Positions 17,270 through 23,838 of a DNA stretch of 64,000 nucleotides are shown piece after piece. Where the stretch lies: positions 1 to 64,000 of the forward strand of contig DUSS01000008.1 of NCBI GenBank assembly GCA_012842495.1, given 5' to 3'. The DNA is from Candidatus Fermentithermobacillaceae bacterium. GTDB lineage: Bacteria > Bacillota > Sulfobacillia > Fermentithermobacillales > DUSS01. Position 1 is the first letter of the stretch. Each line of letters begins with the position of its first letter. Made by a program: the position numbers and the translations under genes. The notes beneath the pieces were generated by a model. That model saw only the letters and a list, made by a program, of their open reading frames with translations, was not told where the DNA came from and searched no databases.

Positions 17270-17389
17270 TGGAAAAACCCCTTTACGCGATCACGTGTGT
17301 CATCACCGTGATCAAGAACTTCCTGCCCAGGAGCATCCCACAGCGCCGGCGTGTGCGGCACGTTTCATCATACCCTCTTATGGTTCAAT

Positions 17390-17646
17390 TACGAAATACC
17401 CGGCAGGGTATTCCTCCGAAGTACATCCGGCAGCTGATGGCCATCCTCACGAAAAGGAGATGGATGACTTCTCAGTGCGGAGCCCGGGGTGGAGTAAAGC
17501 TCGCGGTCAGTCTCGAATCGATCACGGTGAAGGAAGTGATCGAGCTTGCCCAGGGGCCCCTTCTCGTGAAAGAATGCCTGGCCCGGGCTTATCCCTGTGA
17601 GCGCAGAGAACGCTGCCCGCTTCTCCTGGTCTGGTCTCAGGCTCAA
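17390..17646 (+). pseudogene. truncated Rrf2-family Fe-S regulator
   Basis: Read in the frame of position 17401, this stretch matches the second half of Rrf2 winged-helix regulators: RQGIPPKYIRQLMAIL, then GARGGVKLA, then ITVKEVIELAQGPL. A three-cysteine loop follows (C-x6-C-x5-C, ending ERRERCPL), as in Fe-S-binding Rrf2 proteins such as NsrR and IscR. The N-terminal helix-turn-helix start is missing, no start codon or ribosome site fits, and the end runs into the 3' end of the amidohydrolase gene on the other strand. It appears to be a decayed gene. Confidence 0.65.
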
Positions 17647-17710
17647 AGAAACAGAGATAGTTTGCCTAAAGCCGCGATCGGCAGCGAACATTCAGGGTCA
17701 GCCCCGCGCT

Positions 17711-18685
17711 TTACAGACCGAATACTCTGCGGGCGTTGCCGCTGCGGATCATCTCCTTTTCCTGTTCGGGTATCCTGAGAGATTCCACGACCCTGACGGC
17801 CCCCGCCAGGCTTCCGATCTGGTGCGGATAGTCGCTGCCGGCCATGAACTGGGTGGCACCGATGGTCCTCACGGCGAATTCCACCGTTTCCCTGTGGAAA
17901 AGGACGCAGTCGTAGAATATCTCTTTCAGGTACTCCGAAGGCGCTCTCTCTATCTTGCGGCACTCCGGATATGCCCGGTAACCCCTGTCCAGGCGCTCTG
18001 CGAGGTAGGGCAGGGTTCCTCCCAGGTGCGATGAGATGATCTTGAGTCCCGGGTACCTGTCCAGAACACCGGCGAAAATCAGCCGGGCGATGCATAGCGT
18101 AGTATCGGTGGGAAAGCCCACCGTGGCGACCAGGCGATAATCGAGAAATGCCTGGGAAGGGGAGGGGGTGGTCGGATGGATGAAAAGGGGCGCGGAGAGT
18201 CTCACTGCAACCTCGAAGATGGGCTCGAATTCGGGGAGATCGAGGGTTTTGCCGTTTACGTTGGTGAACAGAGTGCCGCCCTTGAGACCCAGAGTCTTCA
18301 CGGCGTACTCGAGCTCCCTCGCCGCCCTGTCCGGTGCCTGAAGCGGCAGAGACGCCAGAGCCTGGAAGCGACCGCCGCTTTTCTGCACGACCTCGGAGAA
18401 CCCTTCATTCACAGCCCTGGCCAGTTCCACCCCACGGCCTTCTTCCTCTATGTGAACCCCGGGCGTGGTCATGGTCAGAACCTGAATGTCTATCCCGTTC
18501 CCCGAGATTTCGCCCAACCGGAAATCGGCATCGCGGTGGCCCCTGTCTACGATGTTGAAATCGCCTTCGTAAAAGATGACCGGGTTGCCCGATGCGTCCC
18601 GTCCCATCTTCGCCCTGGAGCGCCCTTTCGCGATCTCCTCCAGGTAAGCACCGGGGTAGAAATGATTGTGGACATCGATGACCAT
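17711..18685 (-). CDS. amidohydrolase family 2 (ACMSD-like) metal-dependent hydrolase
   Basis: 324-residue TIM-barrel hydrolase or decarboxylase. Metal ligands are recognisable: HxH in DVHNHFYP at the N-terminus, His in PLFIHPTTP near 172, His in SSHLGG near 220 and Asp in GSDYPH near 284. Family members include aminocarboxymuconate-semialdehyde decarboxylase and other aromatic-acid decarboxylases; substrate here is unknown. It lies 17 bp downstream of the NhaC-family gene and should share its T-box-controlled transcript, which hints at a substrate linked to tyrosine or another aromatic compound. That link is inference. Confidence 0.82.
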   Translation of the reverse strand: MVIDVHNHFYPGAYLEEIAKGRSRAKMGRDASGNPVIFYEGDFNIVDRGHRDADFRLGEISGNGIDIQVLTMTTPGVHIEEEGRGVELARAVNEGFSEVVQKSGGRFQALASLPLQAPDRAARELEYAVKTLGLKGGTLFTNVNGKTLDLPEFEPIFEVAVRLSAPLFIHPTTPSPSQAFLDYRLVATVGFPTDTTLCIARLIFAGVLDRYPGLKIISSHLGGTLPYLAERLDRGYRAYPECRKIERAPSEYLKEIFYDCVLFHRETVEFAVRTIGATQFMAGSDYPHQIGSLAGAVRVVESLRIPEQEKEMIRSGNARRVFGL

Positions 18686-18702
18686 CGTCGAGAACCTCCT
18701 TT

Positions 18703-20187
18703 TCAGTTTCCATTGCGGTTTGGTCTTCTCGGGAAACTCGATTCGCCGGTGAATGTTCCCGTGAGCGTGTAGATCGTGGCGACCAGCGGACTCGTCCAGT
18801 TCAGCAGGGCATACGGCGCATACTGAACGGCGGGGATCCTGAGCATGTCGTTGATGAAAAGGGCCGCGGTACTCCAGGGGACCAGGGGTGCGCCCAGCGT
18901 GCCGAAGTCTTCCAGTGTTCGTGACAGGATCTTCGCCGGAACGCCCCGTCGAGCGAAAGCTTCGCGAAACGCCTGTCCCGGCAGGATGAGAGCGAGCATC
19001 TGGTTTCCCGTGGCGAGAAGGGTGAGGTAGCAGGAGGCAGCCACCGAGAGAATGAGCCCCCGCGAGGACCGCACGGCCAGAAGCACAGCCTGCACGAGCC
19101 GCTCTATGACACCGAAATCTCTCAGCACTCCTCCCATGCCCGTTGCCATCAGGATGAGAAAAACCGTCGGGAGCATCGAATTCATCCCGCCCCTCGTCAG
19201 GAGCTTGTCAACCACCGGATCTCCAGATTTGCTCACGTAACCGGCGACCATCGCCCTGGCAAGGGAGCTCGGGGACGATCGTTGAGTGAAGATCGCTGTG
19301 GCAAATGAGATCGCCAAGACCCCGGCAAGCGCGGGTACGGGAGGGACCTTCTTGATGGAGAAGACGGCCAGGAACACGATGGGAACGAGGGTGAGAAATC
19401 CCGTGTTGAAGGCGCCGAGAAGGGCCGACCGGGGGGCACCGGTGGGGACAGGAGCTGCGTGCGCGGAGTAGCCGGTTCCGAGAAAAAAGAAACCGGCCAG
19501 GGAGATAGCGAGAGCGGGAAGCGTGGTGTAGGCCATCGCGGCTATATGCTCGTAGATATTGCTTCCCGATACCGCGGGGGCGACGTTGGTGGTGTCCGAC
19601 AGCGGAGACATCTTATCGCCGAAGTAGGCACCCGACACGATGGCGCCGGCGAGGAGGGGTCCGGGCACCCCCATCGCTTCGCCGACACCCATGAGGGCCA
19701 GGCCCACGGTGCTGATGGTCCCGAAGGACGTGCCCGTCGCGACGGATGCCACACATGACAGAAGGCAGGAGGTGGGGACGAGGAACCGTGGTGTAAGCCA
19801 GCTGAGTCCGCAAGACAGGAGCGTGGGAATCGTTCCCCCTGCGATCCACAGACCGACCAGCATACCTATGAGCAGGAGAATGCTCGCCGCCGGTAGCCCA
19901 TCGACTACTCCTTTGAAGAGAGCCGCCTGTATTCTCTCCCACGGGTTTCCCAGAAGTCGGGTGCCGATGCAAGAAACTGCTAGAGCGAGGAAAAGCGGAA
20001 GGTGCATGCCGGCTCCGAGCCGCAGACCGACGATGAGAACTACGAGAACGGAACCGAAAACGAGAAGAGACTGGACCGTGGACGGGTGCCGGGGACCGGC
20101 CTTGCCGGCGTCGTCCCCGGCCGGACCGCGGGTGTTGGCGCAGGCAGTCGGAAACGCGCCTTTAATGTGTCTATCTGCTTCAATCAC
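18703..20187 (-). CDS. NhaC-family transporter, probably amino acid (tyrosine) uptake
   Basis: 494 residues with about 11-12 membrane helices. NhaC-type features include SGAYFGDKMSPLSDTTNVAP in the middle and TGNQMLALILPGQ and WSTAALFIN near the end. The family is usually named Na+/H+ antiporter. Here, however, the gene is preceded by a T-box leader whose specifier reads UAC (tyrosine), and NhaC-like genes under tyrosine T-boxes have been proposed to import tyrosine. I therefore favour Na+-coupled tyrosine transport. Start GTG 20187 with AGAGGTG 7 bases upstream; a longer frame reaches 20226 without a better ribosome site. Confidence 0.85.
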   Translation of the reverse strand: MIEADRHIKGAFPTACANTRGPAGDDAGKAGPRHPSTVQSLLVFGSVLVVLIVGLRLGAGMHLPLFLALAVSCIGTRLLGNPWERIQAALFKGVVDGLPAASILLLIGMLVGLWIAGGTIPTLLSCGLSWLTPRFLVPTSCLLSCVASVATGTSFGTISTVGLALMGVGEAMGVPGPLLAGAIVSGAYFGDKMSPLSDTTNVAPAVSGSNIYEHIAAMAYTTLPALAISLAGFFFLGTGYSAHAAPVPTGAPRSALLGAFNTGFLTLVPIVFLAVFSIKKVPPVPALAGVLAISFATAIFTQRSSPSSLARAMVAGYVSKSGDPVVDKLLTRGGMNSMLPTVFLILMATGMGGVLRDFGVIERLVQAVLLAVRSSRGLILSVAASCYLTLLATGNQMLALILPGQAFREAFARRGVPAKILSRTLEDFGTLGAPLVPWSTAALFINDMLRIPAVQYAPYALLNWTSPLVATIYTLTGTFTGESSFPRRPNRNGN

Positions 20188-20269
20188 GACTTTCACCTCT
20201 TTCTGATAAGTTCTACCTCTCCTCAAGGTCTACCCAATCTCGCGGCCCTGCTTCAGGAGGAAAACGGGT

Positions 20270-20640
20270 CCTGGAAAACAAGAACCCGTCCCTCAAGGGA
20301 CGGGTCGATATGCCCGCGGTACCACCCCAGTTGGTCGAAACCCGCTCAACCAGGCACGGCAGCGTCTGTTTCCTGGGTTCCCGGAAGAACGACCCGGTCC
20401 GCACGTATCGCCCGCGGCCGGGAGCTCTTGCCCGGGACTACTGCGATGCCCTCTTCCAGGTAACGGTGGAAGGTCCGCCTGAGTCTACTGCCGCAGAACT
20501 GCGGGTTCAACCGGAAGCTCCGAGGTGTATTTCTCCTGGACCGCCGTCCCGGTCGCACCGGCCCCGGGCTCTCTGAGCGGCCGGTTCCAGGGTACTTCTC
20601 CTCTTCATAGCTCAGCAGCGCTTTGAGATTGTTAGCAGAA
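20270..20640 (-). promoter_or_regulatory. T-box riboswitch leader, specifier UAC (Tyr)
   Basis: On the minus strand the T-box core GGTGGTACCGCGG is at about 20313-20327, directly before a terminator hairpin. Upstream, stem I features are visible: GAGGAGAAGTA (loop E side, with AGTA), an AGAGAG box, and GAGAAA-TAC-ACC where the specifier codon TAC is complementary to 20527-20529. The pattern GAA(A)-NNN-A fits the specifier loop, so uncharged tRNA-Tyr should trigger antitermination. The alternative frame AUA (Ile) is less likely because the base after the specifier is normally a purine. Controls the NhaC-family gene and the amidohydrolase. Confidence 0.88.
20275..20305 (-). terminator. T-box intrinsic terminator
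   Basis: On the minus strand ACCCGTCCCT pairs with AGGGACGGGT around a two-base loop (20284-20305 on +), followed by TTCTTGTTTT. The 5' arm overlaps the region that would pair in the antiterminator with the T-box core, as expected for a T-box switch. Confidence 0.85.
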
Positions 20641-20642
20641 CG

Positions 20643-20670
20643 TTTATCACGAAACGGGCGATAGTGTCAA
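20643..20670 (-). promoter_or_regulatory. promoter of the T-box transcript
   Basis: Minus strand TTGACA (20665-20670), 16 bp spacer, GATAAA (20643-20648), placed about 20 bp before the first base of stem I. Confidence 0.55.
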
Positions 20671-20836
20671 CTGCCGGCGCCGTCGACGTGGCGCAGACCT
20701 TACGGGCTGGCATGTAGTTTGACCTGAACGAGTAGCACCGTAGACCGTAAGCCCGGGATGCGGTATTGTCAGGTCGGCCATAGCAAGTGCGACGGCTCGT
20801 TTCTGTATTTGGCGATCACGCGGGGAGGGGAATCTC

Positions 20837-21358
20837 ATGCAGCCTACCATCGATCATATCCATATTACCGTGTCTGACCTCGAACGGGCGGAGAGGTTCT
20901 ATGACAGGTTTCTGCCGCTCCTGGGGTTTGATCTTAAGCACAAAGAGGCGACCCAGGTTCCGGAGCATGAGTACAGGATCATCGAGTACCACCACCGCAA
21001 TTTCTCCTTCGGTATCGTCAATCCGCGACCCGTGTTTAGGGACGAGATAGTAAATAGAAGGAAGCCGGGTGCGATCCACCATATCGCGTTCACCGTTAGT
21101 ACGCGCGCGGAAGTCGACAGGCTCTACGAGCGTGTTCGTGAAATCGGCGCCGTCATCGTGCATCCGCCCCAGATGTATCCGGAGTACTGTGAGGATTACT
21201 ACGCTTTCTTTTTCAAAGACCCCGAGGGCATAGAACTGGAAATCGTGTACCTGGACCGTTCGAGGTACTTCCCCGGCGGCGATGACCGCGCAAATCCGGG
21301 TCTCCGGATATCCGGACAGTATCGGCTTCCGAGCTTCAGGCGGTCGACGAGTTCCTGA
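20837..21358 (+). CDS. VOC (glyoxalase/bleomycin-resistance fold) family protein
   Basis: 173 residues. Single vicinal-oxygen-chelate domain over about residues 4-140: IDHIHITVSDLERAERFYD at the start, IHHIAFTV in the middle, and DPEGIELEIVY at the end, giving the metal-binding His/Glu positions of the fold. Substrate unknown. The start has a strong site (GGGGAGGGG 6 bases before ATG 20837). The last 25 residues after the VOC fold (ANPGLRISGQ...) are probably read-through into the remains of an acetyltransferase gene in another frame, so the natural stop may have been lost. Confidence 0.82.
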   Translation: MQPTIDHIHITVSDLERAERFYDRFLPLLGFDLKHKEATQVPEHEYRIIEYHHRNFSFGIVNPRPVFRDEIVNRRKPGAIHHIAFTVSTRAEVDRLYERVREIGAVIVHPPQMYPEYCEDYYAFFFKDPEGIELEIVYLDRSRYFPGGDDRANPGLRISGQYRLPSFRRSTSS

Positions 21359-21441
21359 GGGAACACTGGTTTTCCACCAAGATGGTGGCCAGAGGCCGGG
21401 TTGTGGACATGACCTTGCTGGACGGATTTGCTGCCTCCCTT
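21301..21441 (+). pseudogene. 5' fragment of a GNAT acetyltransferase gene
   Basis: In the frame of position 21301, which is not that of the VOC gene, the translation reads PDIRTVSASELQAVDEFLRE followed by HWFSTKMVARGRVVDMTLLDGF. This is the typical N-terminus of small GNAT acetyltransferases. The frame then loses similarity after about 45 residues, well before the acetyl-CoA-binding motif. It overlaps the 3' end of the VOC gene, so a deletion or frameshift has joined the two. Confidence 0.55.
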
Positions 21442-21576
21442 GGGTTATGCGGGCAGAATCTTCCCTGAAATCGGTCTCTCCGTCGCAGAACATGGTGCTC
21501 GCTGTGGAACGTACCGCGAGGATCTGCGTCCAGTAAGACGGGAAGGGCGAGAAGGAGAACTCGGGAGGTAGGGAGG

Positions 21577-21759
21577 TTGAAGCGAACACGCATCATCGCC
21601 GCCGGCTGGCTGGTCGCGGCCTTCGTTGGGCATTCGGTGCTGGCCATTCTTCAGAACCAGGAGCTCCGGGATAAGGACCGTGAGATCACGGAGTTGACAC
21701 GGGCGAATGGGGATTCCGGCTTGTGCTGCGGGCCGGCTGCGTGGAGCGATGCGAACTGA
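21577..21759 (+). CDS. small putative membrane protein, 60 aa
   Basis: TTG start preceded by GGGAGGTAGGGAGG. The translation has one hydrophobic helix (IIAAGWLVAAFVGHSVLAIL) followed by a charged, coiled-coil-like segment (LRDKDREITELTRAN). This layout recalls septum- or envelope-associated small proteins, but I do not recognise it. It may also be a truncated gene, as the neighbourhood holds fragments. Confidence 0.35.
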   Translation: MKRTRIIAAGWLVAAFVGHSVLAILQNQELRDKDREITELTRANGDSGLCCGPAAWSDAN

Positions 21760-21902
21760 GGAGGGACAACGGATGTTCACGGCGAACGTCTGTTAGTAAT
21801 GCTGTGCGGCTGATTGGCTACGCCTCTCGAAGCTGCATTGGCCTCGCACACGTTTCCGAGCAGGCTCAAGCGAACCGGCGCCGCACCTGGAGGTGATCAC
21901 CG

Positions 21903-23441
21903 GTGCCACAGAAAGTCACCCTGGAATCGCTCTACTGCCCCTTCTGTCCGGTCGGATATCATGTGCCGCTGGGGTGGCCCAATGTGCACGACATAGCCGA
22001 GTGGGCCGGCCTGGAGATGCGGGCGTACAGCTCATGGACTGCAGATGACGCATCACCCGACGTTCCCGCTCACGTCCGGCAAGTGCTGAGGCAGTCGAGG
22101 GCGGGGGAGAAGGCGTGGGCTCACTACACCATAACCTGGCTCGACGGACAGGCGTATCAGTGGACCGCGGCGGTCGACCCGCCGTACGACCGCATCGTTC
22201 ATGATCTTAACCGCCGGGGATTCGAACTGGAGACGGTCGAAGAACTCGAGACCCGGAGGAGTGCCGGGCTGGGGGTGGGGTCTTCCGGAGACATCCCCGA
22301 CGCCAAGGTGGCGGTGCTCGGGTGCCGGCTCGGCGTGCCGCCCATGGACGACCCCCGCGTTCGCCGCAACGTTCTGCTACTGGCCGCGTGCCGCACCGGG
22401 AGGATTCCCGGTTTCTTTCATCCCCGGCTGTACGAGTCGCCGGTACACCCTGCGGAACAAGTCGACGGTGTGATACCGCGTGGCATCCGGTTGAGGATGG
22501 TGTACGAAGACGAGCTGCCCGAAGTCCCGGCTCTGGCAGAGGCCATCCGTCGCGAGTGGGAGGAGTACGGGATACGGGTGGAGACTGTTCCGATGGGCAG
22601 GTGGCACGCGAGGCAGGCGGTGGCCAGGGATCTCTTTCACGCCTTCCTTCTAGTCTTCTCGTTGCCTCTCGACCCAACCCGACATGGTACCAGCCAGATG
22701 TACGGGAGCAGGGGGATGTACAACTACACCGCGCTCTCCGACGCCGGCGTGGACCAGGCGCTGCGGCGCATAAGGCGGGCGTCCGCCGGCGAGGATCTGC
22801 GGAGCCTGGCGGCGGAGGTCGACCGCATCGTCAACGAGTCGTCCGTGGCCGTACACCTGAAGGAGTTGACGGGAGATCTGCGGGGGGTGGAGGGGGCAAG
22901 CCTTGCGCCCGGTCCTCTCAGGATCCGCGAGATCACCCTCGACGACGCCGCCTACGGGGTATGCGGGCTGATCTCCCCCTGGCAGTGTGTCTACCCTTAT
23001 CCCAAAGCCGGCATGAGCCCGTCTTATCCGTTCTGGAAGGAAATGATCCTCGAGTACGGGACGATGGGCCTCCTGGCCATGCAGGGGGACACCTGTGTGG
23101 GGATGATCACTTTCCTGCCTAAGCCGGTGGCCAGGCGCATCGGCTACGCCACATGCTCGAGCAATGAAGACCTGGAGCGGACCCTCAACATCATATGCAT
23201 CAACGTCGGTCAGACCGCGCTGCGGCAGGGAAGGGGGTCAGCCCTGCTCCGCGCAGCCGAGGACTACGCCCGTTCGCGGGGTTACGTTCGCATAGAAGCT
23301 TTTGCCGCGGAGGAAGAATGCGAAGAGCAGCGTATACACTGGCAGTCCCAAACGCTCTTCCGGCGCCTGGGCTTTGCCTGCGATCCGGACAGCCGGGGTC
23401 CGTGGTGGACGCCGCATCTGTTCTACAAGCGGTTAGTCTGA
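21903..23441 (+). CDS. three-domain protein: CPFC domain, SBP_bac_5-like lobe, GNAT acetyltransferase
   Basis: 512 residues, no signal peptide, so apparently cytoplasmic. Part 1 (about 1-105) has an N-terminal CPFC pair and GWPNVHDIAEWAG and may be thioredoxin-like. Part 2 (about 130-330) matches the C-terminal lobe of oligopeptide-binding ABC solute-binding proteins: DDPRVRRNVLLLAAC, an IRLRMVYE..LAEAIRREWEEYGIRVE block, YNYTALSDAGVDQALRRIR and a VDRIVNESS segment. Part 3 (about 340-512) is a GNAT domain with the acetyl-CoA loop RQGRGSALLRAAEDYARSRGY. Such a ligand-binding lobe inside the cell next to an acetyltransferase suggests a peptide- or drug-recognising acetyltransferase, but this is inference. 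Start GTG 21903 with GGAGGTGATCACC upstream. Confidence 0.7.
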   Translation: MPQKVTLESLYCPFCPVGYHVPLGWPNVHDIAEWAGLEMRAYSSWTADDASPDVPAHVRQVLRQSRAGEKAWAHYTITWLDGQAYQWTAAVDPPYDRIVHDLNRRGFELETVEELETRRSAGLGVGSSGDIPDAKVAVLGCRLGVPPMDDPRVRRNVLLLAACRTGRIPGFFHPRLYESPVHPAEQVDGVIPRGIRLRMVYEDELPEVPALAEAIRREWEEYGIRVETVPMGRWHARQAVARDLFHAFLLVFSLPLDPTRHGTSQMYGSRGMYNYTALSDAGVDQALRRIRRASAGEDLRSLAAEVDRIVNESSVAVHLKELTGDLRGVEGASLAPGPLRIREITLDDAAYGVCGLISPWQCVYPYPKAGMSPSYPFWKEMILEYGTMGLLAMQGDTCVGMITFLPKPVARRIGYATCSSNEDLERTLNIICINVGQTALRQGRGSALLRAAEDYARSRGYVRIEAFAAEEECEEQRIHWQSQTLFRRLGFACDPDSRGPWWTPHLFYKRLV

Positions 23442-23669
23442 ACCTGTAAAGGGGCCAGAACCCGCCTGCGGCGCGACGGGTGCCGAGCTGGTTCGGCCCC
23501 GGCGGCCGTCCGGGGACCTCCGCGTCCCCGAAGGTGTGCCGGCCTGTGGGGGCCGGTTGACAGAAGACGGCGAAGCTGGGATAAGTGGATCAATCAACTG
23601 GCTGAGGCCGACTGGAGGAGAAGCCCCCCTCCCTCGACCCAAGGACGATTTGACGCATAGGAATGAATC

Positions 23670-23831
23670 ATGTACAGGGCATTCTACTCACTTTCTCAGG
23701 ACCCGTTTACCAAGCACATCCGACATTTCCCTTCGAGAGGCTTCAAAGACGCCCTGGCCCGCATCAGGTACCTCATCGAAACAAGGGAGATGCGCGTGAT
23801 TCTCGGTGAACCGGGCTGCGACAAAACCTAA
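23670..23831 (+). pseudogene. truncated ExeA/TniB-like transposition ATPase
   Basis: 53 codons starting ATG: MYRAFYSLSQDPFTKHI, then FKDALARIRYLIETREM, then RVILGEPGCDKT and stop. This is the N-terminus of the AAA ATPase that accompanies some DDE transposases, cut off exactly at the Walker A motif, whose last glycine is also changed to aspartate (GxxGxGKT to GEPGCDKT). No transposase gene was recognised upstream in 23442-23669. Dead remnant of a mobile element. Confidence 0.65.
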
Positions 23832-23838
23832 ACGAGTA

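Follow-up and report, generated by a model that had tools for sequence, protein, structure and literature searches.

A predicted acetyltransferase of a Fermentithermobacillaceae bacterium with one lobe of a family-5 solute-binding protein between two other domains

The gene and its surroundings

We analyzed a 64,000-nucleotide stretch of DNA from a thermophile-related Candidatus Fermentithermobacillaceae bacterium (assembly GCA_012842495.1, contig DUSS01000008.1, positions 1 to 64,000), hereafter "the window", and in it one gene encoding a 512-residue protein of three domains (Table 1). The open reading frame is closely preceded by a Shine-Dalgarno sequence that is a good match (GGAGGTGATC). 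It lies in an accessory block of ~6.5 kb that also holds an amidohydrolase gene, an NhaC transporter gene, a T-box leader, a VOC gene and, at its right edge, a short repeated sequence. In another genome of the same genus (G001), the block is absent and its flanks are joined by ~0.1 kb. The short right-edge sequence recurs elsewhere in G001 and in a further genome of the genus (G002), and the target gene has the highest G+C among 31 long ORFs (0.645 for the gene; 0.578, sd 0.022, for the ORFs). Because of the absence from G001, the edge repeat and this G+C, the block has probably moved horizontally.

Table 1. Positions of the features discussed, in the window unless a locus is named
Feature	Position	Strand	Basis or remark
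Whole three-domain gene	21903..23441	+	ORF (GTG start, TGA stop); homologues
Domain 1, CPFCPVGY domain, residues 1-115	21903..22247	+	Secondary-structure prediction, alignment, weak profile matches
Domain 2, family-5 SBP C-terminal lobe, ~residues 132-322	22296..22868	+	Pfam, profile-profile, AlphaFold, Foldseek
Domain 3, GNAT N-acetyltransferase, residues 338-512, CoA loop L440RQGRGSALL	22914..23438	+	Pfam, AF2-model structure matches
VOC/glyoxalase-superfamily gene, upstream neighbour	20837..21358	+	Pfam Glyoxalase, E 3e-14
Accessory block holding the gene	~17370..23836		Absent from G001; left breakpoint approximate
GNAT / CPxC-motif domain / second GNAT-like region proteins	L007 175-1878; L005 478-1869		L005 split, two frames

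Several other elements of the block can be described. The T-box leader (20293-20617, minus strand) matches Rfam RF00230 at 94.9 bits (cutoff 93) and lies upstream of the NhaC-family gene at 18703-20226. Its specifier loop, GAAAUACACC, likely reads UAC, for tyrosine; tyrosine T-boxes on NhaC transporters are already known (PMC2494555), and the counterpart in G002 falls below the RF00230 cutoff. Downstream of the target gene, the plus-strand sequence at 23668-23831 (MYRAFYSLSQDPFTKHIRHF...VILGEPGCDKT) resembles, by eye, the beginning of an ExeA-type ATPase of the kind associated with transposons; it has no Pfam match, and DNA similar to it recurs in G001 and G002. The stretch after the VOC domain (21301-21465) had been described as a dead GNAT fragment, a reading that finds no database support, with neither a Pfam nor a plasmid match; the equivalent in G002 (L002 4370-5092) is in frame with the VOC domain. 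Between VOC and target gene, G002 also has a 232-codon ORF, counted from stop to stop (L002 5096-5791), that has a hydrophobic stretch close to the N-terminus and no Pfam match. It is mostly deleted in the window, where remnants alone are left.

Three domains in one predicted cytoplasmic protein

A hydropathy scan found no signal peptide, lipobox or transmembrane helix in the 512 residues (maximum 19-residue hydropathy 1.27; N-terminus not hydrophobic), in agreement with a preliminary description of the locus, and we predict that the protein is soluble and cytoplasmic. The same description had read the protein as three domains, a reading upheld by Pfam, profile-profile comparison and fold search. 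The full-length AlphaFold2 model reaches a pLDDT of only 56 and does not give the packing of the domains.

In Pfam, the middle piece alone matches SBP_bac_5 (PF00496) below threshold (E 0.005, 16.4 bits against a gathering cutoff of 32.4). A profile of the family's own lobe sequences, those of the window, G002 and G372 (a genome of another class in the same phylum), with no solute-binding protein (SBP) rows on the query side, scored 98.8% against a profile of seven family-5 SBP C-lobes (E 7e-17, 184 co-linear columns); unrelated control pairs scored <1%. The match takes in the DD-RVR helix, the GI-VE strand and the N-TGLS-VD segment. We modeled the lobe alone because SBP and thioredoxin fragments placed in one full-length alignment were misplaced. 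The resulting AlphaFold model (pLDDT 75, pTM 0.78) found family-5 SBPs in all 50 of the listed PDB matches in Foldseek (best E 2e-10; TM-score by query 0.63-0.77), although, having been built with SBP rows, its fold match is partly guided and is supportive rather than independent. An earlier model without SBP rows gave a similar broad order of helices and strands in the lobe region at low confidence. On the profile and fold matches, we assign the middle domain to the C-terminal lobe of a family-5 SBP, as had been suggested for the middle 200 residues.

What the protein shares with the family-5 SBPs (OppA, DppA, AppA, YejA, NikA) is thus the C-lobe sequence profile and fold; it differs from them in being cytoplasmic, in falling below the Pfam cutoff and in lacking the N-terminal part, since the C-lobe profile columns alone are covered and residues 1-115 do not match SBP. 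A normal SBP cleft requires two lobes. Family-5 SBPs as a class bind varied ligands, and the DppA anchors D408 and R355, which contact the bound dipeptide, are not general to all family-5 proteins. By alignment, these positions carry P255 and E202 in the window protein (P and Q in the G372 protein), so DppA-type dipeptide binding by the lobe is unlikely; recognition of peptides or peptide-like drugs, as had been suggested, is a candidate function. The YDP-KAK-LL-EAGW segment is gone from the window lobe and is degraded, though partly recognizable, in G372.

Domain 3 is a predicted N-acetyltransferase of the GNAT superfamily: it matches Acetyltransf_1 (PF00583) at E 3e-9, with 37.7 bits against a gathering cutoff of 20.7, and the C-terminal domain of the full-length model matches GNAT structures. 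Its CoA loop, L440-R-Q-G443-R-G445, had been called complete. Both small residues of the Q/RxxGxG/A pattern are indeed kept, but Leu takes the place of the usual opening R/Q, as it does in the G372 relative, so the loop is not fully canonical. No named GNAT substrate class matched domain 3 above cutoff. Relative to the GNAT superfamily, then, the protein differs by two added N-terminal domains and the Leu-first loop, and the joining of GNAT to a family-5 SBP C-lobe is a new domain combination within a known superfamily; no precedent for a GNAT/SBP fusion was found in the literature searched.

The N-terminal 115 residues match no Pfam family. Their predicted topology is beta-alpha-beta-alpha-beta-beta-alpha, with the CP motif after the first strand. 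In a profile search of the PDB, the domain weakly matched thioredoxin (3hz4, E 0.14) and DsbG (E 0.28), which suggests that it probably has a thioredoxin-like fold. A profile-profile comparison (hhalign) with thioredoxin and glutaredoxin, at 6.5-9.8%, is too weak to serve as proof; a DARPin match in the PDB search was judged to be chance, its score being summed from repeats. The domain had also been described as "CPFC". A cysteine-motif domain is present, but the family-wide cysteine is C15 and not a CxxC pair: P13, C15 and G82 are invariant in an alignment of seven relatives, and C12 is confined to the three-domain proteins. Because of these invariants, the functional cysteine of the domain, if any, would be C15 in the CPxx motif. 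YoaP-type proteins consist of a GNAT domain followed by a CPY-containing C-terminal domain, and they resemble the window protein in pairing GNAT with a cysteine-motif domain. They differ in domain order, which is reversed in the window protein, and membership in this group was ruled out by the missing match to the YoaP model (PF14268), at E<=10 in the window protein, with none among 61 relatives.

Relatives and constraint on the lobe

The same three-domain order recurs in a 558-residue protein of G372 at 60% identity, and in G002 (DYEQ01000030.1, Candidatus Fermentithermobacillaceae) the copy is 97% identical over residues 1-408, where the contig runs out. A search for this order in other genomes had been proposed in the preliminary description, which named two outcomes as counting against it, a middle domain unlike SBP_bac_5 and a domain order absent from all relatives; we looked for both and found neither. 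That an assembly chimera or a frameshift artifact had joined unrelated genes might be suspected from the gene's high G+C and the mobile-element remnant on its 3' side, but the G002 copy, from an independent assembly, crosses both domain junctions and G372 has them as well. These homologues refute an assembly error and leave it a negligible chance. On this comparative evidence, the fusion is real, old and selected.

The three-domain gene is absent from G001. Relatives in two other genomes (G320 and G026) consist of the N-domain and GNAT and lack the lobe, which marks the lobe as an added module; in G320 the copy has an apparent one-base frameshift close to its start. In G059 and G029, proteins carry a second GNAT-like region in addition to GNAT and the CP-motif domain; the G029 protein is split over two frames. 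No close copy of the lobe turned up outside the three-domain proteins in 399 genomes drawn from the phylum. Within its own genome, its only match at E<=0.001 is itself, which argues against a native SBP gene having been captured recently. Searches of phages and plasmids returned no copies of the gene, so that phage or plasmid cargo was rejected, as was a known anti-phage defence system, for which there was no PADLOC match at the locus. There is no conserved operon partner among the copies compared. The window gene has VOC beside it; the G372 homologue overlaps a methyltransferase gene by four bases, with VOC not adjacent; and in G320 a dipeptide/oligopeptide ABC operon (permease pair) closely precedes the lobe-less relative on the same strand, separated from it by one nucleotidyltransferase gene.

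Between the window and G372, dN/dS is ~0.16 in domain 1, ~0.28 in the lobe and 1.8 in the linker before GNAT; for the GNAT domain, dN is 0.20 with dS saturated. By these estimates, purifying selection acts on each of the three domains and the linker evolves freely. Constraint on the lobe is estimated to be weaker than on the other domains, since its dN/dS between the window and G002 (0.51, from ten changes over few sites) exceeds theirs. Identity between the window and G372 lobes is unevenly spread: 93% at VAVLGCRLGVPPMDD and 87% at VETVPMGRWHARQAV (hinge/strand segments), 67-80% in the cleft loops (GMYNYT through IRRASAGEDLR), and 20-27% in the outer helices (27% in LAEAIRREWEEYG). As aligned, the lobe is conserved mainly at positions lining the family-5 receptor cleft, a pattern as expected if it had one functional face.

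Possible roles of the lobe

We propose, with a probability of roughly 0.4, that the protein is a GNAT N-acetyltransferase whose added SBP lobe helps to handle its substrate. The older core would be the CPxCP domain, probably thioredoxin-like, together with the GNAT domain; the family-5 C-lobe would have been inserted between them later and retained by selection. The lobe may have ceased to serve an ABC transporter and may instead handle substrate within the molecule: its conserved cleft face would pack on the neighboring domain or domains, or on a second subunit, in a composite pocket where a small molecule with an amine group, peptide-like or amino-acid-like, would be held for acetylation by the GNAT domain. 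Supporting this proposal are the three-domain order kept across class-level divergence, the two-domain relatives that lack the lobe, the purifying selection on each domain with the cleft face most conserved, the position of the lobe-less G320 relative near a dipeptide/oligopeptide ABC operon, and the use of SBP_bac_5 in the cytoplasm in SgrR/DsvR. It is weakened because there is a single lobe with the DppA anchors replaced, the lobe is less constrained, the linker is free, no conserved neighborhood points to a substrate and the full-length model has low confidence. In a more specific version, one lobe of a periplasmic peptide receptor would have been recruited to a cytoplasmic enzyme, where it would form a composite cleft together with the N-domain or GNAT and serve as the half of the active site that captures the substrate. 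Such a receptor-enzyme fusion would be new to science; we consider this version unlikely.

Alternatively, the lobe may be a captured SBP piece that folds and binds nothing, separating the N-domain from GNAT or pairing subunits. The solitary lobe, the lost anchor residues and YDP-KAK-LL segment, the weaker constraint and the relatives that manage without a lobe all fit such a structural spacer or oligomerization module; but identity of up to 93% on SBP strand and cleft-loop positions rather than on the outer helices would be needless for one, and we consider it doubtful, if a serious contender. The conserved cleft face would also suit an allosteric sensor through which a cytoplasmic ligand switches GNAT on or off. 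SgrR-type proteins have the SBP domain in full, joined to a helix-turn-helix domain, whereas the window protein has one lobe and an enzyme as partner, and no Pfam match to an N-terminal helix-turn-helix was found in it. The likeness is an SBP_bac_5 domain in a fused intracellular protein, and in SgrR/DsvR such domains are cytoplasmic sensors thought to control DNA binding (PMC13060122). Given the missing half of the SBP domain, we regard a sensor as quite unlikely.

The acetylation of a peptide-like antibiotic, with an outcome comparable to that of MccE2 (which is not known to carry an SBP lobe), would make the protein a detoxification or self-resistance enzyme. It combines GNAT with the fold of a family that includes the microcin C receptor YejA (PDB 8fsq, among the Foldseek matches), and the gene is patchily distributed. 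MccE2 acetylates processed microcin C taken up via the YejABEF oligopeptide transporter (PMC9239234), a case of GNAT acting on a peptide-derived antibiotic imported by such a transporter. No microcin cluster was seen near the window gene, nor any biosynthetic cluster, exporter or further resistance gene beside it; the negative PADLOC, plasmid and phage searches and the changing neighbors also speak against resistance, which we judge very unlikely. The locus had been suggested to be a small detoxification or self-resistance locus, a suggestion that is not supported: VOC is not a neighbor in G372, the supposed GNAT fragment lacks database support, and the block holds the T-box-led NhaC gene and the amidohydrolase gene.

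Family-5 SBPs are usually seen as two-lobed receptors outside the membrane, and a conserved, selected single lobe in a soluble enzyme shows half of the fold to be reusable as a module. The window protein offers a defined system in which to ask whether a single lobe still binds ligand once another domain has replaced its partner lobe. If it does bind ligand, the lobe would indicate what this acetyltransferase, otherwise unassignable, acts on.
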